From contig NZ_AUCB01000027.1 in NCBI RefSeq assembly GCF_000429545.1, positions 1 through 64,000 on the forward strand: a DNA stretch of 64,000 nt, read 5' to 3'. Position 1 is the stretch's first letter; each line of letters opens with the position of its first letter. The notes under the pieces were generated by a model. It was not told where the DNA came from, did no database searches, and saw only the letters and a program-made list of their open reading frames with translations. The position numbers and the translations under genes were made by a program. Shown here in pieces: positions 10,721 to 40,862 of the stretch. The DNA is from Arenibacter certesii DSM 19833 (GTDB lineage: Bacteria; Bacteroidota; Bacteroidia; Flavobacteriales; Flavobacteriaceae).

Positions 10721-10764
10721 ATAAGGTATACCCCTTGTAACTAGCTTTTTATGACCAAGGTCAT
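10721..10764 (-). promoter_or_regulatory. Candidate Crp/Fnr-type operator and -7 box for the ABC exporter operon
   Basis: ATGACCAAGGTCAT (10751-10764) is a perfect 14-bp palindrome and the most symmetrical copy of the motif found in nine promoters here. On the minus strand, TACCTTAT at 10721-10728 lies with its centre 33 bp away, the same spacing as in the other copies. The -7 box is weaker than elsewhere (TAnnTT kept, last two bases not). Confidence 0.5.
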
Positions 10765-10807
10765 GTAAGCTATATTTAATTTTAATCTAGTACTTACCTT
10801 TTTCCTA

Positions 10808-10851
10808 CTGACCAATATCATAGTTTAAACAAGTAGGTGGATCTATTTTTA
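10808..10851 (+). promoter_or_regulatory. Promoter of first usp gene: Crp/Fnr-type site plus -7 box
   Basis: CTGACCAATATCAT (10808-10821) is followed by TATTTTTA (10844-10851). The centre-to-centre distance is 33 bp, which puts the activator site near -41 and transcription start near 10856, about 20 nt before the ATG. The same pattern occurs upstream of the four other usp genes. Confidence 0.7.
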
Positions 10852-10875
10852 TAGAAACCGATAATTGGAGGACTT

Positions 10876-11730
10876 ATGAAAAAAATATTAATTCCCACAG
10901 ATTTTTCCGAGAACTCCAAAAACGCCATACGTTATGCGCTTGATTTGTTTAAGGAGACTCCTTGCCATTTTTATGTACTGTATGTTAATGTAGATGGTTT
11001 AAAGCATTTTGAAAAACCAGCTTATAATTTGGGTACTAACATTTTGGTAGACAGGAAGCCTAAAATGATAGAGGAGAAATTAAAAGATGTAGAGAGCTTT
11101 ATAAATTCCGCTTCCGCCAAGGATTCGCAGCATCAAATTACTACGATTTGTGAAGAAGGTTTTTTTCTTAAAGCCATACGAAGACATATTTTGGAAAAGA
11201 ATATAGAACTTATTGTTATGGGAACCCGTGGAGCTACGGAAATTAAGGAGTTTTTTATGGGCAGCCATGCCGGGGATGTAATCACTAAGGTAGAATGTGA
11301 TGTTTTAATTATCCCAGATAAAGCGCGTTATGCAGCGTTTAAACAAGTAATCTTCCCAGTAGATTTTGAATCGCCCCTAAGTGAAGAGATCATTAAAACC
11401 ACCCGACAGTTAATCGGTTCGCATAAAACTCACATTAAACTACTCTATATCACCAAATCTGGAATCTCACTAATTAAAGAGATAGAAACATTACAAAAGC
11501 AGTGGATAGAAAAGCTAGCCACAACCTTACTCAATCCTACTAGCTTTCACAGGGTAGTCGCCAGTAAGATTGAGCACGGTATTGACCATTTTGCCAAAAG
11601 CACCAAAGCCGACCTCATTATTATGATTTCCAAAGATTATGGGCTACTACATAGACTGTTTTTAGACACCACGGTAGAAGAAATCGGCTTTTGCACGAAA
11701 ATTCCTCTTTTATCCATTCAAGGTTCCTAA
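10876..11730 (+). CDS. Universal stress protein, tandem UspA domains (copy 1)
   Basis: Cytoplasmic stress-adaptation protein of 284 residues with two Usp folds. The N-terminal domain (1-145) starts KKILIPTDFSENSKNAIRYA and keeps the ATP-binding signature G-2x-G-9x-G-S (116-130, GTRGATEIKEFFMGS). The C-terminal domain (about 150-284) begins KQVIFPVDFE but has no such signature, so only one ATP site is likely. A GGAGG ribosome-binding site lies 7 nt before the ATG. It has its own Crp/Fnr-type promoter and is the first of three usp genes in a row, each with its own promoter. The family helps survival under starvation, hypoxia or oxidative stress, but the exact client is unknown. Confidence 0.93.
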   Translation: MKKILIPTDFSENSKNAIRYALDLFKETPCHFYVLYVNVDGLKHFEKPAYNLGTNILVDRKPKMIEEKLKDVESFINSASAKDSQHQITTICEEGFFLKAIRRHILEKNIELIVMGTRGATEIKEFFMGSHAGDVITKVECDVLIIPDKARYAAFKQVIFPVDFESPLSEEIIKTTRQLIGSHKTHIKLLYITKSGISLIKEIETLQKQWIEKLATTLLNPTSFHRVVASKIEHGIDHFAKSTKADLIIMISKDYGLLHRLFLDTTVEEIGFCTKIPLLSIQGS

Positions 11731-11746
11731 CTTGAACAATTTTAAG

Positions 11747-11790
11747 CTGACTTTTATCATGTTAATTGAAAATTGGCTATTTTAATTTTA
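11747..11790 (+). promoter_or_regulatory. Promoter of second usp gene: Crp/Fnr-type site plus -7 box
   Basis: CTGACTTTTATCAT (11747-11760) and TAATTTTA (11783-11790) are spaced 33 bp centre to centre. The -7 box lies after the in-frame TTG at 11773, which rules that codon out as the start of the usp gene. Confidence 0.65.
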
Positions 11791-11814
11791 CTATATTATA
11801 CTAAATTCAACACT

Positions 11815-12651
11815 ATGGTTCGCATTCTTTTACCCACCGATTTTTCTGATAATTCTTTTCAGGCTATTCAATACGCTACGAAAGTCTATAACAAGACTGA
11901 ATGTATTTTTTATTTATTACACACCTATACCCCAGCCGTATATCAATCTGACTACCTAATGGGAAGTCCAGAACAAATAGAATTGGGAGATATATTGCAA
12001 AAAAGCAGTACCAATCAATTAGAGAAACTAAAAAGTAAATTGGAGGATTCCAATGGGAATCCTAAACACAAGTTTATTATTCACTCGGCCTTCAACACCC
12101 TTTTAGGTGAAATTTCATATATGGTAGACGAAGAGAAAATTGACTTGATAGTAATGGGTACCAAAGGCGCTACAGGTGCACAAGAAATTTTATTGGGGAC
12201 CAATGCCGTACACGTTTTAAAACGAGCTAAATGTCCAGTATTAGTAGTACCTCCAAATTATGAATACGAGGCTCCCAAGGAGATTTTGTTTCCCACCGAT
12301 TATGAAATCACCTATGAAAAGGAAAAAATGAGCCCACTACTTTCCATAGCAAATCTTCATAATTCTAGAATAAACGTAATGCACGTGCGAGCAGGCTACG
12401 AGCTTAATCCTACTCAGGAGAAAAATAAGGCCCAACTAGGACAAGTATTAGAGGAAAAAGGACAATTCCATGACGTGCCCGATAACGAGATTATAACAGC
12501 TATAAACGAATTTCAGGTAACGTCCAAATCTAACTTTTTGGTTATGGTCCAGAACAAACACACTTTTATAGAGAGATTGTTTATGCAGCCCGTCATTAAA
12601 AAAATCGGTTTTCATGTTACTATACCATTTATGGTTTTACCGCAACTTTAA
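11815..12651 (+). CDS. Universal stress protein, tandem UspA domains (copy 2)
   Basis: Two-domain Usp of 278 residues. The first domain opens MVRILLPTDFSDNSFQAIQY and carries GTKGATGAQEILLGT, which fits the G-2x-G-9x-G-T nucleotide signature. The second domain opens KEILFPTDYEI and has lost the glycine signature. The start at 11815 is chosen over the in-frame TTG at 11773 because the promoter's -7 box (11783-11790) lies between them, and because the Usp fold begins at this Met. The predicted transcript start near 11795 gives a 20-nt leader. Sequence differs enough from copy 1 to be an old paralogue, not a recent duplication. Confidence 0.92.
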   Translation: MVRILLPTDFSDNSFQAIQYATKVYNKTECIFYLLHTYTPAVYQSDYLMGSPEQIELGDILQKSSTNQLEKLKSKLEDSNGNPKHKFIIHSAFNTLLGEISYMVDEEKIDLIVMGTKGATGAQEILLGTNAVHVLKRAKCPVLVVPPNYEYEAPKEILFPTDYEITYEKEKMSPLLSIANLHNSRINVMHVRAGYELNPTQEKNKAQLGQVLEEKGQFHDVPDNEIITAINEFQVTSKSNFLVMVQNKHTFIERLFMQPVIKKIGFHVTIPFMVLPQL

Positions 12652-12774
12652 GCTTAAATACACACCAAGCTATATAAAACGCATAGCGCTCGTAACAACT
12701 CCGGGGGGATATCAGTCACTTATTATAAAAAATAAGCAGGCAGGTATCCCTCAACTTATTCTTAAAAGCATCAA

Positions 12775-12818
12775 CTGACCATTGTCATAGTTATCCTGCA
12801 CCTGCTACTTTATATTTA
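12775..12818 (+). promoter_or_regulatory. Promoter of third usp gene: Crp/Fnr-type site plus -7 box
   Basis: CTGACCATTGTCAT (12775-12788) and TATATTTA (12811-12818) are 33 bp apart centre to centre. Transcription would start near 12822, about 25 nt before the ATG. Confidence 0.68.
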
Positions 12819-12846
12819 CATAAGCAACTCCTAAAAAAGGGAACTC

Positions 12847-13686
12847 ATGATCAAAAGAATACTAGTTCCTACCGACTTTTCAAAAAATGCGCTTAATGCA
12901 GTGCGATATGCCCTAGATCTTTATAAAAAGATAAACTGTGAATTTTATTTACTAAATGTTTTTAGGCTAGACAGTTATACTACAAGTAACCTTTTGGTTC
13001 CTGAACCTGGAAGTACGGAGTATGAAAATGCTAAGGCAGAATCTGAGGAAGAATTCACAAAACTATTAGAGATGATAGCCCTGCATCAAGATAATTATAA
13101 ACATACCTATTACACCATATCCTCTTATAATTTTTTATCGGAGGCCTTAGAACAGACCATTGCCAATAAAGATATCGATTTGGTGATTATGGGAACCCAA
13201 GGGGCCTCAGGAACGAAGGGGGTTATATTTGGCAGTAATACGGTCAACACCATGGAAAAAGTCAGGGAATGTCCAGTATTGGCAATTCCAAAAAAAGTGC
13301 AGTTTACAGCGCCAAAGGAAATTGTTTTTCCTACCGATTTTAAATCCCGATACAAAAGAACGGAATTGAAATATCTCTTAGAAATTGCCAAAATACACCA
13401 AGCCATCATCAGAGTAATCTATGTGAATAAAAACATGGATTTAAATGAAACTCAAGAGAAAAACAAACAATTATTAAAAGAGATCTTTGAGACTGTAGAC
13501 CACAGTTTCCATACCATATCCAAAAAAGATGTAGCCGATGGAATTACCGCTTTTGCAGATAGTAGGAAGAGCGATATGATTGCTTTTATCAATCGGAAAC
13601 ACTTTTTATTTGGCAGCATATTTTCAAGGCCGTTAGTTAAAGAGATAGGTTATAATGCTACCATTCCAATTTTGGCGTTACCCTAA
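12847..13686 (+). CDS. Universal stress protein, tandem UspA domains (copy 3)
   Basis: Two-domain Usp of 279 residues. The first domain (MIKRILVPTDFSKNALNAVRY) carries the complete nucleotide-binding signature GTQGASGTKGVIFGS. The second domain (KEIVFPTDFKSRYKRTE) lacks it. Its closest relative in the window by eye is copy 5 at 40883; both share VRYALDLY/IKYALDLY and the ending FSRPLVKE-GY. The ATG is preceded by AAAAAAGGGAAC. The damaged eRF1-like gene follows after only 16 bp and is probably co-transcribed. Confidence 0.93.
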   Translation: MIKRILVPTDFSKNALNAVRYALDLYKKINCEFYLLNVFRLDSYTTSNLLVPEPGSTEYENAKAESEEEFTKLLEMIALHQDNYKHTYYTISSYNFLSEALEQTIANKDIDLVIMGTQGASGTKGVIFGSNTVNTMEKVRECPVLAIPKKVQFTAPKEIVFPTDFKSRYKRTELKYLLEIAKIHQAIIRVIYVNKNMDLNETQEKNKQLLKEIFETVDHSFHTISKKDVADGITAFADSRKSDMIAFINRKHFLFGSIFSRPLVKEIGYNATIPILALP

Positions 13687-13702
13687 AAAAATATAAAAAA
13701 CT

Positions 13703-14117: not shown

Positions 14118-14139
14118 TTGATTAAAACATAATAGAACA

Positions 14140-14167
14140 CCGCTAAAAGGCTACGTTTTTTTGGCGG
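14140..14167 (+). terminator. Hairpin after the usp-eRF1-like unit
   Basis: CCGCTAAAA (14140-14148) pairs with TTTTGGCGG (14159-14167), nine pairs with one G-U. There is no clear T-run after it, so it may be a weak terminator or a processing hairpin. Confidence 0.4.
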
Positions 14168-14185
14168 AATAATAGGTCACATCAT

Positions 14186-15131: not shown

Positions 15132-16139
15132 ATGAAATTACTAGTCTATAGCGCCAAAGAATTTGAAATCCCATTTTTGGAAAAAGCCAATAAAGGAAAG
15201 TACAAGGTTTCTTTTTATAAGGAAGCCTTAGATACCCATACCGCAATTAAGGCTGTTGGTTACAATACCATTTCCATATTTTCTGGGGACGACCCCTCCC
15301 TCGTAGTATTAGAGAAACTATGGGATTTGGGGGTACGCAATATCACCCTTCGCGCTACGGGTCATAACAACATACAAATCCACACTGCAAAACGCTTTGG
15401 GTTTAAAGTTGCCAATGTACCTAACTATTCGCCCTATGCTATTGCGGAACATGCTACTTCTTTGCTGTTAACGCTAAATAGAAAAGTTATCTTGGCAAAT
15501 TTAAGGGCCAAAAACTACAACTTTATTCAAAATGACTTATTGGGCTTTGACCTTAATGGAAAAACGGTGGGTATCATTGGTACTGGGAATGTTGGAGCTG
15601 TTATGGCAAGGATTATGCACGGATTTGGTTGCCATATTTTAACCCATGATATAAAACCTAATTTAGACTTGGTTTCTAAATACGGGGCACGATATGCAGG
15701 TTTGGAAGAACTTTATTCAAAATCAGATATAATTAGTCTTCATGTGCCTCTAACACAAGAAACGCACTACTTAATTGGTAATTCTGCTTTCAAGATCATG
15801 AAAAACAATGTCATTCTGATCAATACGGCCAGAGGCGCAGTGGTAGATACCACTGCCTTGCTAAAGGCCTTAGGGAACCATTTAATTGGGGCCTATGGCA
15901 CTGACGTGTGCGAAAATGAAAAAGGAACCTTCTTTAGGGACAACTCCAAAACTGGCATTAAGGATGAGCAACTGAAAAAGCTTCTTTCCTTTTCTAATGT
16001 ACTTCTTACTCCGCATCAAGGTTTTATAACAAGGGAAGCACTTACCAACATTGCAGAATCTACTTTTTATAATTTAGACTGCTGGGCTGAGGGAATAGCT
16101 TGTAAAAATGAATTGGGATGGCAGATAAATACATTATAA
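15132..16139 (+). CDS. ldhA: D-lactate dehydrogenase (2-hydroxyacid dehydrogenase family)
   Basis: Cytoplasmic NADH-dependent enzyme of 335 residues that reduces pyruvate to D-lactate, a fermentative step that regenerates NAD. The NAD motif GIIGTGNVG is at about 147-155. The substrate-binding Arg is in NTARGAVVD (R234), the catalytic Glu in DVCENE (about E261) and the catalytic His in LTPHQGF (H295). The C-terminal half matches Bacteroidetes LdhA-type enzymes. The gene ends 3 bp past the end of the convergent cardiolipin synthase gene; the stop codons are the adjacent halves of TTATAA. Placement inside a Usp/N-ATPase stress block fits oxygen-limited metabolism, but its own upstream region shows no clear copy of the shared operator. 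Confidence 0.88.
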   Translation: MKLLVYSAKEFEIPFLEKANKGKYKVSFYKEALDTHTAIKAVGYNTISIFSGDDPSLVVLEKLWDLGVRNITLRATGHNNIQIHTAKRFGFKVANVPNYSPYAIAEHATSLLLTLNRKVILANLRAKNYNFIQNDLLGFDLNGKTVGIIGTGNVGAVMARIMHGFGCHILTHDIKPNLDLVSKYGARYAGLEELYSKSDIISLHVPLTQETHYLIGNSAFKIMKNNVILINTARGAVVDTTALLKALGNHLIGAYGTDVCENEKGTFFRDNSKTGIKDEQLKKLLSFSNVLLTPHQGFITREALTNIAESTFYNLDCWAEGIACKNELGWQINTL

Positions 16140-17540
16140 CAACGGACTAAAGACTTTTCCAAAACCTTCTTTTAATTTTTCAATCCAGGGTCTTCCCACA
16201 TATTCTTGATAGGAAAGCATTGTGCTAATATTGGCATCTTTAAGAAAATCGTTACGGAGCAGCTTTGCAAATTCCCTATCATAAATAATCGCATTTACCT
16301 CATAGTTTTGTTCAAAACTACGATCATCCAAATTGGCTGTCCCTATGGTAGAAACCGAATCGTCACTAACAATTATCTTGCTATGGAGGAAACCCTCTGG
16401 AAAGAGATAGATTTTTATACCTGACTTAAGCATCGATTCAAAATAAGAGCGCACGCACCACCCCACTATCTTGCTATCTACCTTTTCTGAAACCATAAGA
16501 CGTACATCTACCCCACTCCGTGCCGTAGTCTGTAACGCCTGCATAATTGCTTGCCCAGGAATTATATACGGATTGGTAATATATAGGTAGTCCGTTGCTT
16601 TATTGATAATGGTAAAGCAGGCCTGTTCTAAAGAGGGGAAATCGTCATCGGGTCCACCAGAAACAATCTGCACCAAGGAATCATGCCCTTGTATAAAGGT
16701 GGTTTGTGCTACTACCAAGGGGTCTAATATTATTTGGCTGACCAAATACCAATCCATCTCAAAAATAGTATTCAGGTGACTTGCTGCTTCCCCTTCTATT
16801 TCAATATGCATTTCGTGCCAATTGCCCAAAGCCGGGTCTCCTTTAAGATATTTATCGGAAATATTTATCCCTCCTGTAAAGGCAATTTTTCCATCTACTA
16901 CAATTATTTTTCGATGGTTCCTATAATTGAGGGAAGATAGAAAGCGTCCCAACTTAAAAGGAAGAAAAGGATACACCTCTACCCCCACGGCCAGTAATTG
17001 TTTTAGGTAGGCCTTACGCAATGAAAAACTCCCTATTCCATCATAAATCATCCGTATTTGAACCCCATGGGAAATTTTCTCTTTAAAAAGCAACAATAAA
17101 CGTTCTGCAAGCTCCCCGTCTTCAAAAATATAATATTGTAGGTGTATTTGTTTTTGGGCATTGCCCAATGCCTTAAAGATAGCCTCGAAAGTAGTTTTCC
17201 CATCTTTTAGAAGATGAATCCCATTATATTTCGTAGGTGGGAAAAAGGAGTTTTTATAAACCAATTTCATTAATTTTCCATACTCCCCATCAAGGGTGGA
17301 CATATGGGAGGCTGTTGGTTTCGGTAAATTTAAAAACGCTTTTTTTTTTAATTTGAGTAACTTGTTCTTCCTCCTATTTCTTCCCAATAACAAATACAAT
17401 AAAATACCACCTACGGGAACAGTAAATATGGCCAATAGCCAGGCTAAGGATTTAGACGGTCTTACCCCATGTAGTAGTACCGCAATTACAATAGCAGCAG
17501 CAAATAGAAAGTAAAGTGAAACCAGAATTATATACCACAT
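16134..17540 (-). CDS. cls: Cardiolipin synthase (two HKD phospholipase D motifs)
   Basis: Membrane enzyme of 468 residues that joins two phosphatidylglycerols to make cardiolipin and glycerol. Two N-terminal transmembrane helices (about 3-24 and 32-53, PLDc_N type) are followed by two phospholipase D domains. The HKD motifs are complete: H209-K211-D216 in HRKIIVVDG and H386-K388-D393 in HSKIIVSDD. Length and layout match bacterial ClsA. It is transcribed alone towards ldhA. A Crp/Fnr-type site with the shared 33-bp spacing lies 55-70 bp upstream, which links cardiolipin synthesis to the usp and N-ATPase promoters. Confidence 0.92.
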   Translation of the reverse strand: MWYIILVSLYFLFAAAIVIAVLLHGVRPSKSLAWLLAIFTVPVGGILLYLLLGRNRRKNKLLKLKKKAFLNLPKPTASHMSTLDGEYGKLMKLVYKNSFFPPTKYNGIHLLKDGKTTFEAIFKALGNAQKQIHLQYYIFEDGELAERLLLLFKEKISHGVQIRMIYDGIGSFSLRKAYLKQLLAVGVEVYPFLPFKLGRFLSSLNYRNHRKIIVVDGKIAFTGGINISDKYLKGDPALGNWHEMHIEIEGEAASHLNTIFEMDWYLVSQIILDPLVVAQTTFIQGHDSLVQIVSGGPDDDFPSLEQACFTIINKATDYLYITNPYIIPGQAIMQALQTTARSGVDVRLMVSEKVDSKIVGWCVRSYFESMLKSGIKIYLFPEGFLHSKIIVSDDSVSTIGTANLDDRSFEQNYEVNAIIYDREFAKLLRNDFLKDANISTMLSYQEYVGRPWIEKLKEGFGKVFSPLL

Positions 17541-17565: not shown

Positions 17566-17609
17566 TCAATTTAAGGACCAATGCTAACAATTATCATGAT
17601 TTTGGTCAG
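17566..17609 (-). promoter_or_regulatory. Promoter of cls: Crp/Fnr-type site plus -7 box
   Basis: On the minus strand, CTGACCAAAATCAT (17609-17596) is identical in all 14 bases to the site of usp copy 4. TAAATTGA (17573-17566) is the -7 candidate, again centred 33 bp away. Transcription would start near 17562, about 20 nt before the ATG. Confidence 0.65.
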
Positions 17610-18268: not shown

Positions 18269-18655
18269 CTATACTCCTGCCACCACTTTTTCTAATTTTT
18301 GGGTTACATCAGTAGCCAATTCCTTTAAACTATCGTTATCAATTGCCATCATAGATGCTTTTGGGTTTACGGCGGCCACTTCTATCTTGCCCTCGCCTTT
18401 CTCTTGAACAATAACATTACAGGGCAGCATAGTACCCACTTTATCTTCTGCCAAAAGTGCGTTATGGGCATATCCTGGATTACATGCTCCTAGAATGGTA
18501 TATTTTCTAAAGTCAACATCCAATTTGTTTTTTAAAGTATTTTTAATGTCGATTTCGGTCAACACACCAAAGCCTTCTTTTTTTAATTCTTCTTTTACCT
18601 TGTTAACCACTTCATCAAAATTGCCTGTTACTGTTTTACTGATATGATATTTCAT
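18269..18655 (-). CDS. DUF302 family protein
   Basis: Small cytoplasmic protein of 128 residues covering one DUF302 domain. Typical features are KEELKKEGFGVLTEIDIKNT near residues 24-43, the YTILGACNPGYAHNAL segment near 53-68, and the later LLPCNVIV-type motif (here MLPCNVIVQE). DUF302 proteins are widespread and have no agreed biochemical role; some are linked to redox or metal stress. The promoter carries the same operator and spacing as the usp genes (18748-18791), giving an 88-nt leader. That makes membership of the same regulon likely. Confidence 0.87.
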   Translation of the reverse strand: MKYHISKTVTGNFDEVVNKVKEELKKEGFGVLTEIDIKNTLKNKLDVDFRKYTILGACNPGYAHNALLAEDKVGTMLPCNVIVQEKGEGKIEVAAVNPKASMMAIDNDSLKELATDVTQKLEKVVAGV

Positions 18656-18747: not shown

Positions 18748-18791
18748 TAAAGTTATGGCTTAAACCAAACATCTGAAATGATCTTTATCAG
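18748..18791 (-). promoter_or_regulatory. Promoter of the DUF302 gene: Fnr-like site plus -7 box
   Basis: On the minus strand the site reads CTGATAAAGATCAT (18791-18778), whose core TGAT-N4-ATCA is Fnr-like. It is followed by TAACTTTA (18755-18748), centred 33 bp away as in the other promoters. Transcription would start near 18744. Confidence 0.6.
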
Positions 18792-18932: not shown

Positions 18933-18976
18933 CTGACCAAAATCATATTAATCAACAGTATTAGCTCGTAATTTTG
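18933..18976 (+). promoter_or_regulatory. Promoter of usp copy 4: Crp/Fnr-type site plus consensus -7 box
   Basis: CTGACCAAAATCAT (18933-18946) and TAATTTTG (18969-18976) are 33 bp apart centre to centre. The -7 box is a perfect TAnnTTTG. Transcription is expected near 18981. Confidence 0.68.
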
Positions 18977-19202: not shown

Positions 19203-20057
19203 ATGAAGAACATACTTGTTGCCACCGATTTTTCTAATAATGCATATTGTGCTCTATTTTATGCAAGCCAATTACTTAAGTCACAGCCATGTACTTTTTA
19301 TTTATTGAACACCTACAATGAGCTTTCCCTTTTAGAAGGTGAAAAATTACCTGGTTTTGGTGGTAAAAAGGTGATGAAGCAATTGAAAGCAGCATCCGAG
19401 GAAGGCTTAGCACGGACATCTTATAGAATTGTTTTGGACACTGGGAATCCCAATCATCAATTTAAGACCATTTCCAAAAAGGGTGATTTAGGGAGAAGAA
19501 TCCTCAAACTAATTGATAAAAAAGAAATTGATTTGGTTGTAATGGGAAACAAGGGACAAACTCAAGCTGGAGAACTTTTCTTTGGTAGTAATACTATTAA
19601 AGTTGTAAATGAGATGACTACCTGCCCCGTACTGGCCATCCCAGGTGAAATGGATTATATATCTCCAAAAGAGATTGCTTTTGTAACCGATTTTAGAACA
19701 GGGTGCCAGGCAGAGACAATTTCCCCATTATTAGATCTAATTGCTATAACAGACGCTACAATTAAAATTATGCACATCAATGAAAATAAAGTTCTGAGTG
19801 ATATACAGGAAACTAATAAGGAAACCTTGCGTACTTGTTTTAACGGAATAGAACATTCCTTTCATGAGATTTATGAATTTAGTGACAAAGCCAAGACTAT
19901 TGACTCATCTTTGGATAAATATAAAATAGATCTGTTTTCTATGGTACATAATAGACGGAGCCTATTTGAACGATTAACACGTGAACCTGTTATTAAAGAT
20001 GTAAGCATGTATTCTGATGTACCCTTTTTGGTACTCCCAAATAAAAGTGGTAAATAG
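19203..20057 (+). CDS. Universal stress protein, tandem UspA domains (copy 4)
   Basis: Two-domain Usp of 284 residues. The first domain (MKNILVATDFSNNAYCALFYA) keeps the nucleotide signature as GNKGQTQAGELFFGS. The second (KEIAFVTDFRTGC) lacks it. It is more divergent than the other copies: the usual PTDFS is ATDFS and MGT is MGN. It is followed after 30 bp by a PPOX-family gene on the same strand, suggesting a two-gene unit. The promoter has two candidate Fnr/Crp-type boxes and an unusually long leader. Confidence 0.92.
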   Translation: MKNILVATDFSNNAYCALFYASQLLKSQPCTFYLLNTYNELSLLEGEKLPGFGGKKVMKQLKAASEEGLARTSYRIVLDTGNPNHQFKTISKKGDLGRRILKLIDKKEIDLVVMGNKGQTQAGELFFGSNTIKVVNEMTTCPVLAIPGEMDYISPKEIAFVTDFRTGCQAETISPLLDLIAITDATIKIMHINENKVLSDIQETNKETLRTCFNGIEHSFHEIYEFSDKAKTIDSSLDKYKIDLFSMVHNRRSLFERLTREPVIKDVSMYSDVPFLVLPNKSGK

Positions 20058-20752: not shown

Positions 20753-21634
20753 TTACTTCTTTTTTAATGCTTCAAATCCCGCGATCACATCAAACAACTC
20801 CTCATCTATGGTACTTTGTCTAAGTCGGTTATACCTTAGATTTAACTCACCTAATACTTCATCAATATTCTTTTCCGCTCGCTGCATAGCCTCTAACCTA
20901 CTTGCATTCTCGGCCGAGAGCGATTCTGCACAAGCTTTATAAAGAGAAACAAATAAGTATTCGCTTATGAGCGTTCTTAACGTACTTTCTTCATCACCTA
21001 TTAACTCTGGTAGATTTTTTGAAGGCCATTTTATCTTATATATATCTCTATTCCACTCTTCCTCTGGCGGATAAAGTTGTTGACACTCTTGCTGGTACCC
21101 CACCATTGGCAAGGGCTTGTTGTGTAATATATAAAAGTGATATGAGTTATTTTTTTTGCGGTATTCTTCACTTAAGATTAAAATGTGGTTTACCAGTGGT
21201 GTAATGGCAGATACGGAATTAGGAACATTAAATAGTCGCTTAGGCGTATACCCTTCATCTACAAGCAAGAAATAGGCCCGTTCACCGACGGCCCATATTT
21301 CTACCTCCCCTTTTAAGTCTTTTAATGTATCTTGAGCTAAAGCAGCTATAGTTTCATTAAATCTACCCACAAGTCCTTGATCGGACCCAAAAACAACTGC
21401 TACAGTTAACTGCTCGTTGTTATTCTCCTTAGTGGCCGCAACGGAAAGTTTTTCGCGTTTTAAAGCTGTATGTAAACCTAGGGAAATGGTACGATAATAC
21501 TCTTGTAGCGATTGAACCGCCATTTCATATTGAGTAATATTGGAAGTTGCCATGGCTTTCATGGTACGTACGACCGATGCAAGGTCTCCTGCACTTTTTT
21601 TTCTTCTCTGAATGCTTATTAATGTATCACTCAC
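20753..21634 (-). CDS. atpG: N-type ATPase gamma subunit
   Basis: Central stalk subunit of 293 residues linking the alpha/beta hexamer to the c ring. The N-terminal helix ([29 protein letters not shown]) and the C-terminal helix ([20 protein letters not shown]) form the coiled-coil shaft and match the gamma pattern. The middle Rossmann-like part includes [15 protein letters not shown], the usual gamma core motif. It is the last gene of the operon and overlaps atpA by 8 bp. The sequence is clearly unlike a housekeeping gamma in its insert region, as expected for the N-type branch. Confidence 0.88.
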
Positions 21635-23186
21635 CGTTATTAGTTTTAATTTGCGTATCCCTTACTAGACTACCAAGGGCCTCATTTGCCATAGCTAAAA
21701 TAGTTTCTTCATCTGTTGCACTTAAAGGTTCAGAGGAGATAATACGTCGTAATAAATCGCTAGATAATTGAGTCGCTTTTTTTCTTACCAAGTCTTCGGC
21801 CTCTGTAATGCGATTAAGAGGAACTGCATCAAAAAGACCTTTAGTGAGTGCTACAAGAACAAGAATTTGCTCTGTCACGGAAACGGGCTGCATTTCAGGC
21901 TGTTTAAAAAGCAGACGAATCCTTTTTCCATGCTCAATAATTTTTTGGGTATCCTCATCTAGGCGGGTTCCGAATCTTGAGAATGTTTCCAATTCCTCCG
22001 ATTGAGCATAGGCCAATTTTAAATTTCCAGCAATTTTTCTATAGGCCCTCAACTGGGCCTTACCTCCTACTCGTGAAACAGACTTTCCGATATCTACAGC
22101 AGGAAGCAATCCTAATTCAAAAAGCTTGGGTGACAAGTAAATTTGTCCGTCCGTAATAGAGATTAGGTTAGTAGGAATATACGCAGAGATATCTTGCGCT
22201 TCAGTCTCTACTATGGGAAGGGCAGTTAACGACCCCCCGCCATGATTATCATTTAAGTGGGTAGCTCTTTCAAGTAAGCGCGAATGGATATAAAAAATAT
22301 CCCCAGGGAATGCTTCTCTACCTGGCGGCCTACGCAATAGAAGTGAAAGTTCTCGATATGCCCTAGCGTGATTGGTAAGATCGTCATAAACAATCAACAC
22401 ATCTTGTCCCTGTTCCATGAAATATTCTGCGATACTTGTGGCCGCATAAGGAGTAATATATTGAAGGCCTGGAGAGCTGTTGCCTTCAGAAACTACCACA
22501 ATGCTATACTCCAAAGCGCCTTTTTCAGAAAGTTCTGATACAACTTTAGCAACGGCTGCGGTACGCTGCCCTATGGCGCAATATATACATAGCACATCCT
22601 TATCATGCTGGTTAAGAATAGTATCAATTGCTATAGATGTTTTTCCTGTTTGACGATCACCCATTATAAGTTCGCGTTGCCCACGTCCAATAGGGATAAT
22701 CGCATCTATCACTTTTAAGCCAGTTTGCAAAGGAACATTTACCGCCTCTCTACTCATTATAGGTGGTGCAGGTCGTTCTATTGGGTAGTATTCATCATAA
22801 GATATTGGGCCTTTATCATCAATAGGGTTTCCTAAGGGATTAATAATACGTCCTATAAGACCTTTACCAACAGGTATGTCTGCCACTCTATGGGTTCTTG
22901 TCACTTTGTCCCCGGCTTGTATTTGGTCGTCCTCACCTAAGAGCACAACACCAATATCATCTTCATCCAAATTAAAAGCAATACCATAAATATCATTTGA
23001 AAATTGAAGCAACTCTTCAAAGCCTGTACCAGGTAACCCAGAAACTGTAGCAATTCCCGCAGAAACGTTCTTAACCGTTCCCATCTCCTGAAGCTGAGGG
23101 CCGGGTTTATAATTCTCTCGTTTATCCCTTATTTCAGTGAAGGTATCATCTAATATTTTATTTAAATTAAGCTGATTCATTATCAT
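21627..23186 (-). CDS. atpA: N-type ATPase alpha subunit
   Basis: Non-catalytic nucleotide-binding subunit of the F1-like head, 519 residues. The Walker A motif is GDRQTGKT (176-183), followed by the alpha-type [10 protein letters not shown] segment and [11 protein letters not shown]. The gene overlaps atpF by 20 bp; an internal ATG at 23180 would shorten the protein by two residues and the overlap to 14 bp. The alpha subunit lies after atpF and before atpG. With no atpH in between, this is the N-ATPase order and not the usual atpHAGDC order. Confidence 0.93.
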
Positions 23187-23931
23187 TATCTTTGGTAATG
23201 CTATTGTTCTTTAAAACCTCTAGATATGCTTCAATATTCCAAGACAGCTGGTAACTTTTTGTATTAATTTCTACACCACTAATCAATTCTGGATCTATGC
23301 TATACTGAAAATCTGTTTCTAGACCAGTTATATCCTTAAGGGTTTTTTGAAGGACAGATTTGGAGATAGGTGAAAGTTCAAATGCACTGGTAACGTTTAT
23401 TATCTCATTATTATTAAACGCATTTTTAAGTTTTGATAAGTTATCCTTATCCAAATTCTCAATTTTATTTATAAATACTTTTACAACTTGCTGGTCTAAC
23501 TTCGTATCGGCTAGATCGGCTAGTGTTTTCTCTGTGATTGCAAAAACCTCTTCTTTAGTTCTGCGTTTAAGCTTAACAGTTAGGTCCTTTTCTCGTTGTT
23601 TAAGGGACGCCTCATATTTTTTTCGCAAAGCGGTAGCCTCCTCTCTTATTCCATGGTACAGGCGCTGTTTTTCCAAATCTGCTTCTTCATATACGCTATT
23701 CATTTGTGCTGCACGCTCTTTGTCGAATATGTCATTTTTTTGTAAAAACTTGTCGTATTCTTTTTCTGCCTCGGCTTTTTTTGCCGCGGCATTTTCAAGT
23801 TGGGAAGCAATCTTTTTATCTCGCTCATCAATAGCTGTTAATACAGGCTTATATAAAAACCTTTTTAACAACCAAACAAGAACTAAAAAATTGATTATCT
23901 GTGCTATTACCGTAAACCAATTTATATTCAT
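23167..23931 (-). CDS. atpF: N-type ATPase subunit b with delta-like C-terminal extension
   Basis: Peripheral stalk subunit of 254 residues. A single N-terminal helix (about 1-22, [25 protein letters not shown]) anchors it. A long charged coiled coil runs to about 150. The C-terminal part (about 165-254) contains [20 protein letters not shown], which resembles the C-terminal signature of the F-type delta/OSCP subunit. The protein is about 100 residues longer than a usual b subunit (near 156), and no separate delta gene exists in the operon. The extension therefore probably supplies the delta function; this is inference from sequence and gene content. Confidence 0.85.
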
Positions 23932-24131
23932 TTTTATTTTATTTATATACTGTTTAGGACATAGTATTGCTTAAAATTATATCCAATTTCCACTTATTCT
24001 CATTATAATTATTTCATACATCTATTTACCTCTCCCTCGTTTTGAAAATTAAAATAGATAGTCCTACGTCATAAAATTCTTTCTAAAATCCCAGAGAGCG
24101 TTATACTTCTAATACTGAAGTAACTCCAGTC
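23932..24131 (-). other. 200-bp gap inside the ATPase operon
   Basis: All other neighbours in this operon overlap or lie within about 110 bp, but atpE and atpF are 200 bp apart. The gap is AT-rich, has no reading frame, and shows no strong terminator. It may hold an mRNA processing site that allows more c subunit than b subunit to be made; this is speculation. Confidence 0.3.
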
Positions 24132-24398
24132 TTATCCTAGAAAGTGATTCCAAAAAGGATTTGCAAAAATGAGTATCATTGAGAGTACAAAACAATAAAT
24201 AGCTGTTGATTCAATCATAGCCAATCCCACAAAGAGTGTCCTAGTAATTGTTGGTGCAGCATCTGGTTGTTGGGCTATGGACTCTAATGCTTTGGAAACT
24301 GCTCTTCCTTCCCCTATTGCAGGCATCATACTTCCTATAGCGGTTGTAAAGCCTGCCGTAATAATTGATGCCATTGCTATAATCGTTGTATTATCCAT
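24132..24398 (-). CDS. atpE: N-type ATPase c-ring subunit with two glutamates
   Basis: Rotor proteolipid of 88 residues with two transmembrane helices and the polar loop AQQPDA. Ion-site residues can be read directly: Glu30 in PAIGEGRA on helix 1 and Glu63-Ser64-Thr65 with Tyr68 (MIESTAIY) on helix 2. Ser, Thr and Tyr at these places are the sodium-coordinating set of Ilyobacter-type c rings. A second carboxylate on helix 1 in place of Gln is typical of N-ATPases. N-ATPases were first proposed to pump sodium, but a studied N-type ring with two carboxylates was reported to be proton-specific, so the ion cannot be assigned from sequence. Confidence 0.92.
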   Translation of the reverse strand: MDNTTIIAMASIITAGFTTAIGSMMPAIGEGRAVSKALESIAQQPDAAPTITRTLFVGLAMIESTAIYCFVLSMILIFANPFWNHFLG

Positions 24399-24505
24399 AA
24401 TTTTACTGTTTATTTAATTTTTAATTACTGAATCTTATCTGATTTAATTTCTAGGGTAAAATATTTTACATTTAGCACTATATAGTCGGTTATAATTCAT
24501 CATAC

Positions 24506-25216
24506 TCAATTGTTACCGGACCTAGGTGCGTTGGCTTGCACTTTTTTCACCTTTGCATCTTGGGTAGCAGCCGTTATATATACCCCTGCTAGGATAGCGA
24601 ATATATATGCCTGTATCATTCCGGTTAAAAGCCCTAAAGCACTCATTATTATGGGAAAGAAAAACGGCGCAATGGAAAGCAATACAGAAACAATTAAACC
24701 ACCACTCATAATATTTCCAAATAACCTTACCGCCAGTGCTAATGTCCGTGAAATTTCGCTAATAATATTAAAAGGCAGCATTATAAAGTTAGGTTGCAAA
24801 TACGATTTAAGATATCCCTTTAATCCGCCTTCGGCAATTCCAAAAACAGGTACGGCAATAAACACACTAATGGCCAACGCTACTGTTGTTGAAAGAGAAC
24901 CTGTGGGGGGTTCATACCAAGGAATAATAGACAAAAGGTTTGATGTTGCAATAAATAGAAATAACGTTCCAATAAAACCTATATACTTTTCAGGGTCTTT
25001 TAGACCTACTTCTTTAATTTGATCCCTGATCATTATGATCAACATTTCTAAAACACTTTGCCACCGTGTGGTTTTGATATTCGATTTTAAACCGCGAGTA
25101 ATGGCCCATGCCCCGAGTACCATGAGCAACATTAGTGCCCATGTGGTAACAATGGTAAGGTTTAACTTTACAAACCCGTACTCCCAAAAAATCATTTCAT
25201 CGGGACTAAGTCTCAT
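24506..25216 (-). CDS. atpB: N-type ATPase subunit a
   Basis: Membrane stator subunit of 236 residues that forms the ion half-channels beside the c ring. Five to six hydrophobic helices are visible. The essential Arg is R164 in the motif LALAVRLFGNIMSGG, preceded by SEISRT and followed by a final helix with GLLTGMIQAYIFAILAGVYI. The protein starts 11 bp inside the end of the atpR gene. Its place directly after atpR and before atpE is diagnostic of the N-ATPase gene order. Confidence 0.92.
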   Translation of the reverse strand: MRLSPDEMIFWEYGFVKLNLTIVTTWALMLLMVLGAWAITRGLKSNIKTTRWQSVLEMLIIMIRDQIKEVGLKDPEKYIGFIGTLFLFIATSNLLSIIPWYEPPTGSLSTTVALAISVFIAVPVFGIAEGGLKGYLKSYLQPNFIMLPFNIISEISRTLALAVRLFGNIMSGGLIVSVLLSIAPFFFPIIMSALGLLTGMIQAYIFAILAGVYITAATQDAKVKKVQANAPRSGNN

Positions 25217-25526
25217 CGCTCATTTGATTTATAATTGGAGTTTCCAAACTCTTCTGTTTGTGGGTATATCGGGTAATTACTACTCTAGCTATTAAAAAGC
25301 CAACTAGGCATGCTAACATCTTTTGCCAACTGTTAGCACCTATATAGTAAAAGCCTAGAAGTATAATTAACATCCTTAAAATTAAGCTGCCCGTAAATAT
25401 TAATCCTGCTTTTGAAGAACGTAGTCCAACCCTTACAGTATACCAAAGTCCACCAAAAAAAACAACTCCAAGTACGATCCCTGCAAATAATGCTGGAATT
25501 ACGATTATAACGTCATTCATTTCCAT
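25206..25526 (-). CDS. atpR: N-ATPase-specific membrane subunit AtpR
   Basis: Small hydrophobic protein of 106 residues with three predicted helices (about 5-27, 38-57 and 68-85). The feature YTVRVGLRSSKAGLIFTGSLI, with positive charges between helices 1 and 2, resembles the AtpR family found only in N-ATPase operons. AtpR is thought to act with AtpQ in assembly of the c ring or in stabilising the stator. The gene overlaps atpQ by 14 bp and atpB by 11 bp, so the three are probably translationally coupled. Identification rests on size, topology and position. Confidence 0.8.
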   Translation of the reverse strand: MEMNDVIIVIPALFAGIVLGVVFFGGLWYTVRVGLRSSKAGLIFTGSLILRMLIILLGFYYIGANSWQKMLACLVGFLIARVVITRYTHKQKSLETPIINQMSDET

Positions 25527-25836
25527 CTTTATTCGTGTTATGTATTTCCTTATCTTCTTTTCTAACCCAGTTCCAAGCGATTAAACAACCTAGTATTAAG
25601 CCCATAAGCAACAAGCTAAGGGTCCAAGAAAAATCTTGATCAAAATTTTTATCGAGCCATATACCAAAGGCTGCTCCTAGTATAGTAGGAACCGCAATTG
25701 ACCAACCAACTAAGCCGAAGAGCCCCAGGCCTGCCCATACGCTTTTATTGCTACGCTGAGCCTGTAATTTTCTTTCTTCCTTATCTCCCACTATATTGCT
25801 GAGAGACTTGTTCTTAGGTCTGTTATTTTTCGCCAC
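25513..25836 (-). CDS. atpQ: N-ATPase-specific membrane subunit AtpQ (AtpZ/gene-1-like)
   Basis: Membrane protein of 107 residues. A charged N-terminus of about 32 residues is followed by two helices (about 34-60 and 70-90). The pattern SVWAGLGLFGLVGWSIAVPT then GAAFGIWLDKNF matches the F0F1-ATPase 'gene 1'/AtpZ-like family to which AtpQ belongs. Members are proposed to help c-ring assembly or divalent ion transport. The start is 1 bp after atpC ends. The order D-C-Q-R-B is exactly that described for N-ATPase operons. Confidence 0.82.
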   Translation of the reverse strand: MAKNNRPKNKSLSNIVGDKEERKLQAQRSNKSVWAGLGLFGLVGWSIAVPTILGAAFGIWLDKNFDQDFSWTLSLLLMGLILGCLIAWNWVRKEDKEIHNTNKDGNE

Positions 25837-25837
25837 T

Positions 25838-26236
25838 TTATTTTCTTAATTTCTGAAAACTTCGCATAAATCCAGTTTCCAATTTAGCCATTACGCTTCG
25901 GGCGTTTATTTCTAATTCATCCAGTTGCATCATTTCCTGTTCTACCAAATTACGTAGTTTTCCAAGCGGTGCATCTCCCATTGCATTCCTAACGGATACT
26001 GACACTTCACTTCCTGCCTTAATTAATATCCCATTGTCCAAGGCAACGTATTTTATCCCTTCAGACTCCGTTTGGTACATTAAGATACCTGGCACTAATG
26101 CTGCTGTACAATCCAATCTTCGAGGTAAAATTCCGTATGCTCCCGCTGTTGTTTCAACTACAATTTTTTTAACGTTTTTAATATCTGCAAATACTTTATA
26201 GGGCAACAGAATTTTTAAATGCATTGTTGTCTCCAT
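25838..26236 (-). CDS. atpC: N-type ATPase epsilon subunit
   Basis: Epsilon-like subunit of 132 residues that binds gamma and can inhibit ATP hydrolysis. An N-terminal beta-barrel (MHLKILLPYKVFADIKNVKKI, then AYGILPRRLDCTAALVPGILM) is followed by a helical hairpin from about residue 90 (LRNLVEQEMMQLDELEINAR). The motif LPRRLDCTAALVPG differs from the usual LPGHAPL of housekeeping epsilon and is characteristic of the N-type version. It starts 3 bp after the atpD stop codon. Confidence 0.85.
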   Translation of the reverse strand: METTMHLKILLPYKVFADIKNVKKIVVETTAGAYGILPRRLDCTAALVPGILMYQTESEGIKYVALDNGILIKAGSEVSVSVRNAMGDAPLGKLRNLVEQEMMQLDELEINARSVMAKLETGFMRSFQKLRK

Positions 26237-26239
26237 CGT

Positions 26240-27676
<1,437 letters not shown>

Positions 27677-27685: not shown

Positions 27686-27729
27686 TAAATATAGGAACAC
27701 AGGAATCAACTAAGAATGACCAATATCAT
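27686..27729 (-). promoter_or_regulatory. Promoter of the N-ATPase operon: Crp/Fnr-type site plus -7 box
   Basis: ATGACCAATATCAT (27716-27729 on the plus strand) lies upstream of atpD. On the minus strand TATATTTA (27693-27686) is centred 33 bp away, as in the usp promoters. The site is in the opposite orientation to the others, which is possible for a near-palindrome. Transcription would start near 27681. Confidence 0.65.
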
Positions 27730-36661: not shown

Positions 36662-36713
36662 GAACCGAAATGGTGGTATGGGGAAAACCGTAGAAGATTT
36701 TAAAGCCTAAGTC

Positions 36714-37103: not shown

Positions 37104-37113
37104 CATAAAAATC

Positions 37114-37956: not shown

Positions 37957-37988
37957 TTTTACAAACAACATAGTAAACAAATTAAGGT

Positions 37989-38252: not shown

Positions 38253-38425
38253 ACGTCTCAATTTTAATATTATACCATATTCTCGAGACCGCATTTACCC
38301 CTTTAATTTGATCCTGAGATCAACAAATTTAATCTACCCCTTTCTCTTTTGGAATGATATATATCACCTTAGCCTTTTTTGCTGAAAAATTCATCTTAAA
38401 CCATTGGAGTCGCCTTTTTACTGAT

Positions 38426-40714
38426 TTATTTTATAGATATTTCATCCATAAAGATCCATGCATCTCCTTTTCTCAAATGCCACTCTGGTAATGTTCCTCG
38501 ATTCTTGGCAGTAATTTTAATATAGAAAACCGTTTGATTAGCAAAATTAGCCTCTATTTTTTTTATAATGGGTTCTCTCTCCTCTACGGTTTCTATGGCT
38601 CCGTTTAAAACAGTCTTATAGTCGTGTCCATCTTTCGAAATGGATATGGTGACATGTGTAGGAAGCATTACGGAAGTGGCCCCTATGTCCTGATAGTAAT
38701 TAAGCCCTACGAAAGACAGTTCCTTGGCATCACCAAGATCTACCACTACTTCAAAATCTTTTTTCGGAATACCCTGCCAATTAGGATCGTCTCCACGGGC
38801 AGTGGCAAATTTATTATTTACAAGTGCCCTATCCCCTCCTCCACTATAGGTCTCGTCATAGGGATTGGTATAAGTTATTGTTGCCTGATCTCCAAAGCCA
38901 GTAGAGAACATTTTAATTAAGGGAAACCCAATAGCCTTACCATTCCTAAAAGATTGAGCATTTAATTCAATAGTAGAAGCATATTCAATTGGCGCTGAAT
39001 ACAGTTTGGATTCCATTGATGGCTCGGAACCATCCAAGGTGTATCTAATGTCGTATAGATCTAGTTCGTTAAACAGACTAAGGCTAAATACCTTATTCCC
39101 CTTATTATAACTTACCTCATAGTTGGGAGATATGGCACTCCCAGCAAAATTATAGCCCAAGTCTTGAAATCTATCTAACTGAAAATCTAATTTTTCTTTA
39201 AAATATTCCTTTTCCTTATGATCAGATTTTGTCCAAAGTGCTTCGGAAAGGGCGGTGAGTCTAGGCAGCATCATATATTGAACATGGTTTAAGGTTTCTA
39301 TCTGCTCTGTCCATAGATTGGCTTGTCCGCCTAAAATATGGTGCCTTTTATCTGCCTCAATAGCTGTGGGAATAGGATCAAAGTTGTACACTTTTAATAG
39401 GTTATTATAACCGCCCCAGGAGGGAGGTTCAAATTCACTTTTACCTTGACTATGATCAAAATATAAAGGGTCTCCCGGTGACATTACTACATCATGTCCG
39501 GCATTAGCTGCTTCTATTCCGCCTACAACCCCTCTCCAAGACATCACCGTGGCTCGTTCTGGCAAGCCTCCTTCTAGAATCTCATCCCATCCAATAAGCT
39601 TCCTATTTTTAGAATGTATAAACTTTTCCATTCTTTTTACAAAATAGCTTTGCAGTTCTTCTCCATTTTGCAAGTTTTCCTCTTGCATTCTTATTTTGCA
39701 TTTATCACAATTTAACCATGAATCCTTTCCCACTTCATCCCCACCAATATGCAGATATTCATTAGGAAACAATTCTACTACCTCACTAATTATATTTTCT
39801 AAAAATTGAAAGGTTCCATCGTTACCAGCGCAATACACACCAGTAATATCTTTGGTATCACAAGAGAATTCTGGGTAACATTGTAAAGCGGCTTCCGAAT
39901 GCCCTGGCATTTCTATTTCAGGAATCACATCTATATACCGGTCCTTTGCATAGGCTACTATCTCCCTAATATCCTCCTTGGTATAGTAACCTCCATACAC
40001 TTCCTCATCTGCATTTTCTTCAGTCACTTCAAAATCTTCCCATGGTTTCTTGTTTTCTTTTACTTTACGCCATGCCCCTTTTTTGGTGAGCTCTGGGTAA
40101 GCATCAATTTGAATTCTCCATCCTATCCCATCTACCAAATGCCAGTGAAATTTATTCATCTTATGCATTGCTAGTACATCTATCACTTTTTTTACAGCAT
40201 CTTTAGGCATAAAATGACGAGATACATCCAACATCATTCCTCTCCATCCAAATTCTGGGGCATCTCTAATGGTTACGTAGTTTAGGACAGGTTCTTTTAC
40301 GGCTGATTTTGGCGTTAGTAGTTGCTTTAACGACTGAATACCATAAAACAAGCCTTGGTAAGTGCCTCCTTTAATCGTCACCCCTGTTTTATCGATAGTC
40401 AGGCCATAAGCTCCTTCTGGTTCATCCTCATCAGAAAGGATCAATTGAATGGCATTATCCTGATTCTCAGAGGTTGCCTTAAGGTCTAAATTAAAATTGG
40501 CTCTTAAAAATGATTGCAATTCGGCTGTTAGCTTTTTACCCTCAAACGTACTATCAACGACAATTATAGTGCTTTTATTCATTTCAAAAGAACCTTTTTG
40601 ATAGGTGATTTCATTAGGTTGTGGAATTATTCCTGTAAAAATGGGTTCTTTTTTTTTGCAGGAGGTGATAATTAAAATAAGAAGAAAAGGGAGTAATTTA
40701 AATACTTTCATCAT
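38426..40714 (-). CDS. GH20 beta-N-acetylhexosaminidase, large lipoprotein form
   Basis: Exported glycoside hydrolase of 762 residues that removes terminal N-acetylglucosamine or -galactosamine from chitin-like or glycan chains. A lipoprotein signal ends in LIITSC (Cys19). An N-terminal GH20b domain (about 25-145, IPQPNEITYQKGSF) precedes the TIM barrel (about 150-500). HWHLVDGIGWRIQ lies at 190-202 and the catalytic Asp-Glu pair is D326-E327 in HIGGDEVG. C-terminal parts are a chitobiase-type segment (LDGSEPSMESKLY) and a discoidin-like region. It is transcribed away from usp copy 5. A second, shorter GH20 at 42594 lacks the C-terminal domains. Confidence 0.93.
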   Translation of the reverse strand: MMKVFKLLPFLLILIITSCKKKEPIFTGIIPQPNEITYQKGSFEMNKSTIIVVDSTFEGKKLTAELQSFLRANFNLDLKATSENQDNAIQLILSDEDEPEGAYGLTIDKTGVTIKGGTYQGLFYGIQSLKQLLTPKSAVKEPVLNYVTIRDAPEFGWRGMMLDVSRHFMPKDAVKKVIDVLAMHKMNKFHWHLVDGIGWRIQIDAYPELTKKGAWRKVKENKKPWEDFEVTEENADEEVYGGYYTKEDIREIVAYAKDRYIDVIPEIEMPGHSEAALQCYPEFSCDTKDITGVYCAGNDGTFQFLENIISEVVELFPNEYLHIGGDEVGKDSWLNCDKCKIRMQEENLQNGEELQSYFVKRMEKFIHSKNRKLIGWDEILEGGLPERATVMSWRGVVGGIEAANAGHDVVMSPGDPLYFDHSQGKSEFEPPSWGGYNNLLKVYNFDPIPTAIEADKRHHILGGQANLWTEQIETLNHVQYMMLPRLTALSEALWTKSDHKEKEYFKEKLDFQLDRFQDLGYNFAGSAISPNYEVSYNKGNKVFSLSLFNELDLYDIRYTLDGSEPSMESKLYSAPIEYASTIELNAQSFRNGKAIGFPLIKMFSTGFGDQATITYTNPYDETYSGGGDRALVNNKFATARGDDPNWQGIPKKDFEVVVDLGDAKELSFVGLNYYQDIGATSVMLPTHVTISISKDGHDYKTVLNGAIETVEEREPIIKKIEANFANQTVFYIKITAKNRGTLPEWHLRKGDAWIFMDEISIK

Positions 40715-40818
40715 TAGACCTAAATTATGTATTCGATAAAAATAATCAATTCCTTCAGGGTAGTATATTGGTTGTCTAACAAACGGGAATATACTCTAAA
40801 CTTTCCCTAATAATCTTC

Positions 40819-40862
40819 CTGACCAATATCATAGTATCTAATTTAAATACAGGTTATTATTG
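40819..40862 (+). promoter_or_regulatory. Promoter of usp copy 5: Crp/Fnr-type site plus -7 box
   Basis: CTGACCAATATCAT (40819-40832) is identical to the site of usp copy 1, 30 kb away. TATTATTG (40855-40862) is the -7 box with one mismatch, centred 33 bp from the site. The start of transcription would be near 40867, 16 nt before the ATG. Confidence 0.67.

Follow-up and report, generated by a model that had tools for sequence, protein, structure and literature searches.

A predicted low-oxygen, class II FNR/FixK-like regulon with two candidate regulator classes in Arenibacter certesii and its relatives

The FNR/ANR regulon of Proteobacteria is built on class II promoters with a TGAY...RTCA palindrome near -41, has ccoN- and hemN-type targets, and is controlled by proteins with N-terminal cysteines. 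In the rhizobial FixL-FixJ-FixK cascade, a FixL-type PAS kinase, a receiver and a CRP/FNR module are tied to cbb3 oxidase genes. In the mycobacterial DosS/DosT-DosR system, heme-type sensor kinases and usp genes beside two-component genes are linked to a proposed hypoxic maintenance. The flavobacterial family is common in marine polymer degradation. In this study, we analyzed a 64,000-nucleotide stretch of Arenibacter certesii DSM 19833 (contig NZ_AUCB01000027.1, positions 1 to 64,000; hereafter the window), in which the operator TGAYNNNNRTCAT recurs at a fixed distance from a promoter box. No FNR-type regulon was found described for the family in the open-access literature, and no description was found there of this operator or of the receiver-CRP proteins of Bacteroidota reported below. 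CRP/FNR homologues of Flavobacteriales have been assigned to carbon sensing via a MalR matrix (PMC8510549); those predictions concern, by name, the same order and the CRP/FNR family, and the available part of that paper does not describe the TGAYNNNNRTCAT operator. None of the terms looked for occurs in PMC12531629.

The arrangement is best read as a low-oxygen, class II, FNR/FixK-like regulon that would extend across the family and include the nine window sites noted earlier (ten with one found here). Its operator would be shared by two regulator classes: one is an FNR-like protein, and the other, RR-CRP, joins a receiver domain to cNMP-binding and HTH_Crp_2 domains. Judged from sequence comparison, we give this reading a probability of about 0.78. 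The system would work like an FNR/FixK class II regulon with a FixL-type branch. It resembles the proteobacterial FNR/ANR regulon in the TGAY...RTCA palindrome near a predicted -41, the ccoN-/hemN-type targets and the N-terminal cysteines. It differs in the base before TGA, which is A (71%) or C (22%) rather than T (86 exact sites, 12 genomes), and in its Bacteroidota promoter box, a displaced third cysteine, many usp targets and a second candidate regulator class on the operator. It shares with FixL-FixJ-FixK a FixL-type PAS kinase, a receiver and a CRP/FNR module tied to cbb3 oxidase genes; here, however, the receiver is joined to the CRP module in a single protein, which would leave out the transcriptional step from FixJ to FixK, and sensing is predicted from sequence. 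Heme-type sensor kinases, usp genes beside two-component genes and a proposed hypoxic maintenance recall the Dos regulon, whereas DosR is a non-homologous NarL-type protein with another DNA site, and a hypoxic role in flavobacteria is so far a prediction.

The consensus, TGAYNNNNRTCAT-N22-TANNTTTR, begins with a palindrome of FNR type, and transcription is predicted to start about 41 bp downstream of it. The initial annotation had listed nine sites with a uniform 33 bp between the centers of operator and box. All nine 14-mers were present in the window sequence on the strands and at the positions annotated, and the distance, which leaves 22 nt from the end of the 13-mer TGAYNNNNRTCAT to the box, held at every one. 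The TANNTTTR box was exact in six of the nine, and the three boxes described as weak do deviate, as marked below. A tenth site, exact and absent from that annotation, lies at 38324-38366. The sites are as follows.

10721..10763, minus strand: operator and box TACCTTAT (two mismatches), before hlyD of an ABC exporter (9509-10591 and on)
10809..10851, plus strand: operator and box TATTTTTA, before usp1 (10876-11730)
11748..11790, plus strand: operator and box TAATTTTA, before usp2 (Usp domain from 11821, to 12651)
12776..12818, plus strand: operator and box TATATTTA, before usp3 (12847-13686)
17566..17608, minus strand: operator and box TAAATTGA (one mismatch), before cls (16134-17540)
18748..18790, minus strand: operator and box TAACTTTA, before a DUF302 gene (18269-18655)
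18934..18976, plus strand: operator and box TAATTTTG, before usp4 (19203-20057), whose start is 226 bp behind the box
27686..27728, minus strand: operator and box TATATTTA, before an N-ATPase-type operon (beta 26240-27655 to gamma 20753-21634)
38324..38366, minus strand: operator and box TAAATTTG, before a 101-aa open reading frame (ORF; 37989-38294)
40820..40862, plus strand: operator and box TATTATTG (one mismatch), before usp5 (40883-41740)

The spacing between operator and box is fixed. Seven of the nine boxes found 0-60 nt behind the 13 operators of the window sit at gap 22. The same holds for 26 of the 30 boxes behind 53 operators in stretches from Arenibacter latericius and three Maribacter species (L033-L036), which were fetched by the usp1 protein and not by the motif; the usp1 orthologue of A. 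latericius (L033) is preceded by the same site. Pooled, 33 of 39 boxes are at gap 22, a spacing that would give about -41. A flexible spacing was rejected, as the distances peak at this one value. Positions 15-16, just behind the operator, are T-rich (77% and 71% of the 86 exact sites) and may represent a degenerate -33 element; the operator center would lie near -41 and overlap the -33 region.

The genome-wide scan proposed in the initial annotation placed the motif and its spacing far above the control. In the own genome, gaps of 15-23 gave 22 matches against 2 for the reversed pattern, and 18 of the 22 were at gap 22. None of these 18 exact sites falls inside an ORF of at least 150 aa, and for 16 of them an ORF start (at least 60 aa, right strand) lies at most 230 bp away. 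The four matches that are not at gap 22 comprise two inside ORFs of at least 150 aa and two (gaps 20 and 23) before genes. Seven of the 18 exact sites are in the window, compared with 0.23 expected. With one mismatch allowed, the genome gave 46 matches against 9 in the control. Three one-mismatch matches (G000, C5:521-563, C26:292-334 and C59:8837-8879) share an inverted repeat, AACGGGG(G/A)TCATGACCCCCGTTA, that is nearly the same in all three and runs into a stretch of T; this is probably a repeated terminator or element end and unlikely to be a regulon site.

Comparison with related flavobacteria, also proposed at the outset, indicated a family-wide regulon far larger than the window. The family is taken to be Flavobacteriaceae, to which its named members Arenibacter and Maribacter point. 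The fixed-gap pattern with TANNTTTG had 1,771 matches in 250 of 299 family genomes (a sum of hand-copied per-genome counts), and the reversed control had 17 (counted by eye). In a sample of 247 genomes from the phylum, the pattern was present in 27/27 genomes of the family and 3/3 of a second family of the order. It occurred in 20/31 genomes of other families of the class (42 matches, control 1) and in 17/186 genomes of other classes (25 matches, control 4).

A profile search found five own-genome proteins above the HTH_Crp_2 cut-off. A Crp/Fnr-family regulator had been expected outside the window, and the candidates are indeed encoded there; when recognition helices were compared, as had been suggested, three of the five shared one motif, and the other two (L003 and L005) had unrelated helices. 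The FNR-like protein, L001, has cNMP-binding and HTH_Crp domains (PF00027 and PF13545 above cut-off). Its best match in the PDB is 2gau, of the Crp/Fnr family (2.9e-24), followed by FNR-type regulator entries 9qlt (9.5e-23) and 5cvr (6.5e-22). Cys4, 7, 52 and 109 are conserved in 10/10 aligned orthologues, and the third is not at the position it has in the E. coli sequence. The gene is divergent from a P-type ATPase gene (Pfam E1-E2_ATPase, HMA and ATPase-cat_bd), which we take to be of CcoI/FixI type. A one-mismatch site lies in the intergenic region shared by the two, and an exact site precedes the usp gene behind L001.

RR-CRP has two copies in the own genome, L002 (contig C6) and L004 (contig C21). 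Both have a PAS histidine kinase gene upstream and an operator-bearing usp gene downstream, the C21 site with one mismatch. The receiver scored 105.2 bits against PF00072, and the Asp of the CDIMMP motif is present in 8/8 aligned proteins. With a phosphorylatable Asp in the receiver and an adjoining kinase gene, RR-CRP has the features of a response regulator, which would be phosphorylated by its partner. It is not of FixJ type, since its output is cNMP-binding plus HTH_Crp_2 and not a LuxR/FixJ-type helix-turn-helix. The FNR-like and RR-CRP proteins are 27-30% identical overall. The helix ATE[ST]xIRxxSxFKK is common to 18/18 aligned regulators (10 FNR and 8 RR-CRP), which were taken from among the nearest matches. 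At the position of Ser212 in E. coli FNR, this helix has Ile, which A or C rather than T before TGA would fit. Two further CRP-type proteins of about 360 aa, L225 (G108) and L227 (G211), carry the related helices TATETAIR and TAKETAIR and may form a third class that reads this operator.

A kinase ORF lies upstream of RR-CRP in 19/20 fetched genomes and at both own copies. A PDB search with the PAS domain of the C6 kinase gave heme-PAS structures of FixL and DosP, the FixL heme PAS first (best E 3.4e-13); 12 of the 14 matches listed are labelled FixL, DosP or heme PAS, and a 13th, yddU, is presumably Dos. The C21 kinase also matches FixL (E 8.5e-11). In the alignment, 21/21 kinases have His at the heme histidine of FixL and 18/21 have Arg at its distal arginine, the own two included; both residues are ligands in FixL. 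Among 30 own-genome PAS_9 domains examined out of 39 found, only the two RR-CRP kinases have both His and Arg. A general PAS_9 origin of the His was thus rejected for this genome, on an alignment (MAFFT --add) of low identity.

Within the family, the distribution of sites follows that of the regulators. An FNR orthologue (E<1e-45) was found in 181/299 family genomes and RR-CRP (E<=1e-40) in 138/299. Genomes with both classes (n=82) had a mean of 10.6 exact sites and no zeros, FNR-only genomes (n=99) 4.6 with 3 zeros, RR-CRP-only genomes (n=56) 7.3 with no zeros, and genomes with neither class (n=62) 0.7 with 46 zeros. Small or incomplete genomes were ruled out as the cause of the last contrast by the mean of 0.9 sites in the 12 neither-class genomes of at least 2.5 Mb and at least 95% completeness. 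Same-genus pairs differed in regulator number in 15/63 cases; the richer genome had more sites in 13, fewer in 1 and equal numbers in 1 (sign test p 0.002), a comparison that reduces phylogenetic dependence and does not remove it. The extreme pair was G073 (no PF13545 match at E<=1e-6), with 0 sites, and G284 (both classes), with 11.

Sites were also linked to the RR-CRP genes. A site lay at most 2 kb from an RR-CRP gene in 11/31 genomes with both position lists, compared with 0.24 expected, and nine of these were within 100 bp (24-96 bp). G032 and G212 were left out of this count, and G125 was entered with 16 of its 17 sites. G448 and G452 (two of the 11) and G418 belong outside the order. 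In Maribacter orientalis (L034), histidine kinase and RR-CRP matches directly precede the usp cluster that holds the usp1 relative, with sites on both sides. In M. arcticus (L036), a kinase match directly precedes the usp cluster; in the fetched stretch of M. caenipelagi (L035), neither kinase nor RR-CRP was found. In the own genome, the usp cluster of the window and the kinase-RR-CRP pairs are on different contigs.

The target survey covered 12 genomes, seven FNR-only and five RR-only, with all of their 86 exact sites; 85 of these had a downstream ORF (84 distinct). Targets were tallied by Pfam, and five RR-only proteins found in both lists were counted as RR-only. A COX1/CcoN-like target was present in 7/7 FNR-only and 4/5 RR-only genomes, and a HemN-like radical SAM target in 6/7 and 5/5. 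This supports the link to oxygen suggested in the initial annotation, as the same arrangement precedes CcoN-like and HemN-like genes in relatives. Further targets included cytochrome c, NadA, MlaE, Ribosomal_S30AE (HPF), phosphotransacetylase, PFL, POR and PPDK. Usp accounted for 1/42 targets in FNR-only and 8/42 in RR-only genomes (Fisher p 0.03). In the own genome, 25 Usp domain matches correspond to 21 genes. Twelve of these have an upstream site matching at least 14 of 15 positions, and the other nine have at most 12; of these nine, one is behind hemN, which has a site, and two are behind an operator-bearing usp gene on C6.

The simplest reading is class II activation by either dimer at low oxygen. 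At a Bacteroidota-type promoter (TAnnTTTG), a dimer on an operator centered about 41 bp ahead of the predicted start would contact RNA polymerase. The FNR-like protein, encoded beside the ccoI-like gene, is a probable Fe-S oxygen sensor. When oxygen falls, it would assemble its cluster, and/or RR-CRP would be phosphorylated by the kinase, whose PAS resembles the heme PAS of FixL and DosP; the own genome has two such kinase-RR-CRP pairs. Either dimer, or both, would activate the cbb3 oxidase and oxygen-independent heme synthesis. RR-CRP would mainly activate the expanded Usp set together with the N-ATPase, cardiolipin synthase and other maintenance genes. The initial annotation had proposed one Crp/Fnr activator acting on usp, N-ATPase and cls genes, perhaps under oxygen or energy limitation. 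The family of the activator, the class II-like geometry, the gene set and the oxygen link are supported, and the single activator is not: the operator suits two regulator classes, which have their helix motif in common. A single regulator was rejected because sites persist in genomes keeping either class alone and are rare, with a mean of 0.7, when both are absent.

It was considered whether the FNR-like protein alone reads the operator, with RR-CRP co-occurring since micro-oxic-rich genomes keep both. This would agree with the ccoI-like neighbor of the FNR gene, with the sites found in FNR-only genomes, and with the genomes outside the order, where the presence of RR-CRP alone brings no increase in sites. 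We regard it as improbable: a mean of 7.3 sites, without a zero, was found in the 56 genomes that carry RR-CRP and lack a close FNR orthologue; RR-only genomes retain the site before CcoN- and HemN-like genes; in nine genomes, the distance from a site to an RR-CRP gene is 24-96 bp; and the helix motif is common to both classes. A division of targets through subtly different sites, with RR-CRP serving usp and maintenance genes and FNR the respiratory genes, has the unequal Usp tallies (p 0.03) and the usp genes adjoining RR-CRP in its favor. It seems rather unlikely, as both groups bear the operator before CcoN- and HemN-like genes and the variable 13-mer positions are similar; a difference was looked for and not clearly seen (TGAC in 19/43 FNR-only and 12/43 RR-only sites, GTCA in 16 and 18).

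The operator might instead belong to another, unlisted Crp-type regulator following the same phylogeny. G205 and G138 do have a few sites without either class, and some genomes encode additional CRP proteins whose helices are related. Nevertheless, in the own genome the helices of the remaining two CRP proteins above the cut-off are unrelated, and within-genus differences track the two named classes, which makes this very improbable. Chance or general promoter composition would be helped by AT-rich genomes, in which TAnnTTTG is common; it is judged refuted by the 1,771 matches against 17 for the reversed pattern and by the single-value spacing peak at gap 22.

Several observations weigh against a low-oxygen regulon shared by the two classes. 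In the own genome, the best site of the ccoI-like gene has one mismatch (box CATCTTTG), ccoN was not located, and two exact sites (L012 and L015) are 679 and 327 bp from an ORF start. By E. coli numbering, the FNR-like protein lacks the third N-terminal cysteine. It scored 107.7 bits against NCBIfam NF008365 (Fnr), below the curated cut-off of 228, and is for this reason labelled FNR-like rather than Fnr; the C6 kinase scored 89.4 bits against NF041777 (FixL), below the cut-off of 850. Membership in either NCBIfam model, Fnr or rhizobial FixL, is not claimed. The helix deviates in distant FNR orthologues: that of G284, a genome with 11 sites, reads ATELLIRTLTKFKK, and G026 and G234 differ too. 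G026, G128 and G234 have FNR and 0 exact sites; an altered helix was considered as the cause, and the helix is slightly changed in G026 and G234.

The co-occurrence itself has exceptions, and related genomes are not independent in these counts. Five incomplete genomes (73-88%) have neither class and at least two sites, namely G048 (8), G238 (7), G147 (6), G051 (2) and G251 (2). Four others are 99% complete: G205 (4 sites), G138 (3), G086 (2) and G188 (2). No ATE[ST]xIR helix was found in G205 and G138, G086 carries a VETVIR helix, and G188 has no PF13545 match at E<=1e-6. The RR-only class is not fully clean, because absence of FNR means no match below E 1e-45 and L225/L227-type proteins occur in some of its genomes; in G027 and G101, RR-CRP is, by count, the sole match at E<=1e-15. 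RR-CRP was found in 21/31 genomes of other families of the class (e.g., G300, G333 and G414) and in 0/186 of other classes. The association of RR-CRP with sites was not seen among these 31 genomes outside the order, where, by hand counts, those with RR-CRP had a mean of 1.5 exact sites (7/21 zeros) and the 10 without it 1.1. In these families, either the regulon is small or box and spacing differ.

The window genes behind the sites carry the functions first assigned to them, as judged by domain and profile matches, and are listed below.

7564..10591, minus strand: ABC exporter operon (HlyD-type fusion protein, MacB/FtsX permease and ABC ATPase)
10876..13686, plus strand: usp1-usp3, Usp proteins
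16134..17540, minus strand: cls, cardiolipin synthase (TIGR04265, 428.7 bits, cut-off 290)
18269..18655, minus strand: DUF302 domain gene
19203..20057, plus strand: usp4, Usp protein
20753..27655, minus strand: N-ATPase-type operon (beta, epsilon, two small membrane proteins, a, c, b, alpha and gamma)
40883..41740, plus strand: usp5, Usp protein

The subunits are those of an F-type ATPase, and their order, beta-epsilon-...-a-c-b-alpha-gamma, marks N-ATPases. A small ORF between a and b (23932-24505, minus strand) is the c subunit, with GEGR and IESTAIY. As this pattern is typical of Na+-translocating rings, the enzyme is probably of Na+ type. The b subunit (254 aa; 23167-23931, minus strand) has a further match, to the OSCP/delta C-terminal half (PF00213, 4.6e-8), and resembles a fusion of b with delta. 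The 101-aa ORF at 37989-38294 (minus strand) and L017 (C6, 89 aa) are small, near operator sites and alike in style; the former has no Pfam match, and its copper-chaperone match is sub-threshold.

We also consider a broader interpretation, which is plausible enough to pursue although we incline slightly against it. The FixL-FixJ-FixK cascade may have been compressed into a heme-PAS kinase and RR-CRP, running parallel to an Fe-S FNR through a shared operator and a helix nearly identical across about 70% divergence. The usp expansion, the Na+-type N-ATPase and cardiolipin synthase might then form a hypoxic maintenance program convergent with the mycobacterial Dos regulon. For the family, the analysis provides a testable low-oxygen regulon with named candidate regulators, an operator and targets, and proposes hypoxia as the condition for the expanded Usp family. 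If true, one operator served by two seemingly interchangeable regulators of different signal logic would offer a natural experiment on how regulation is rewired.

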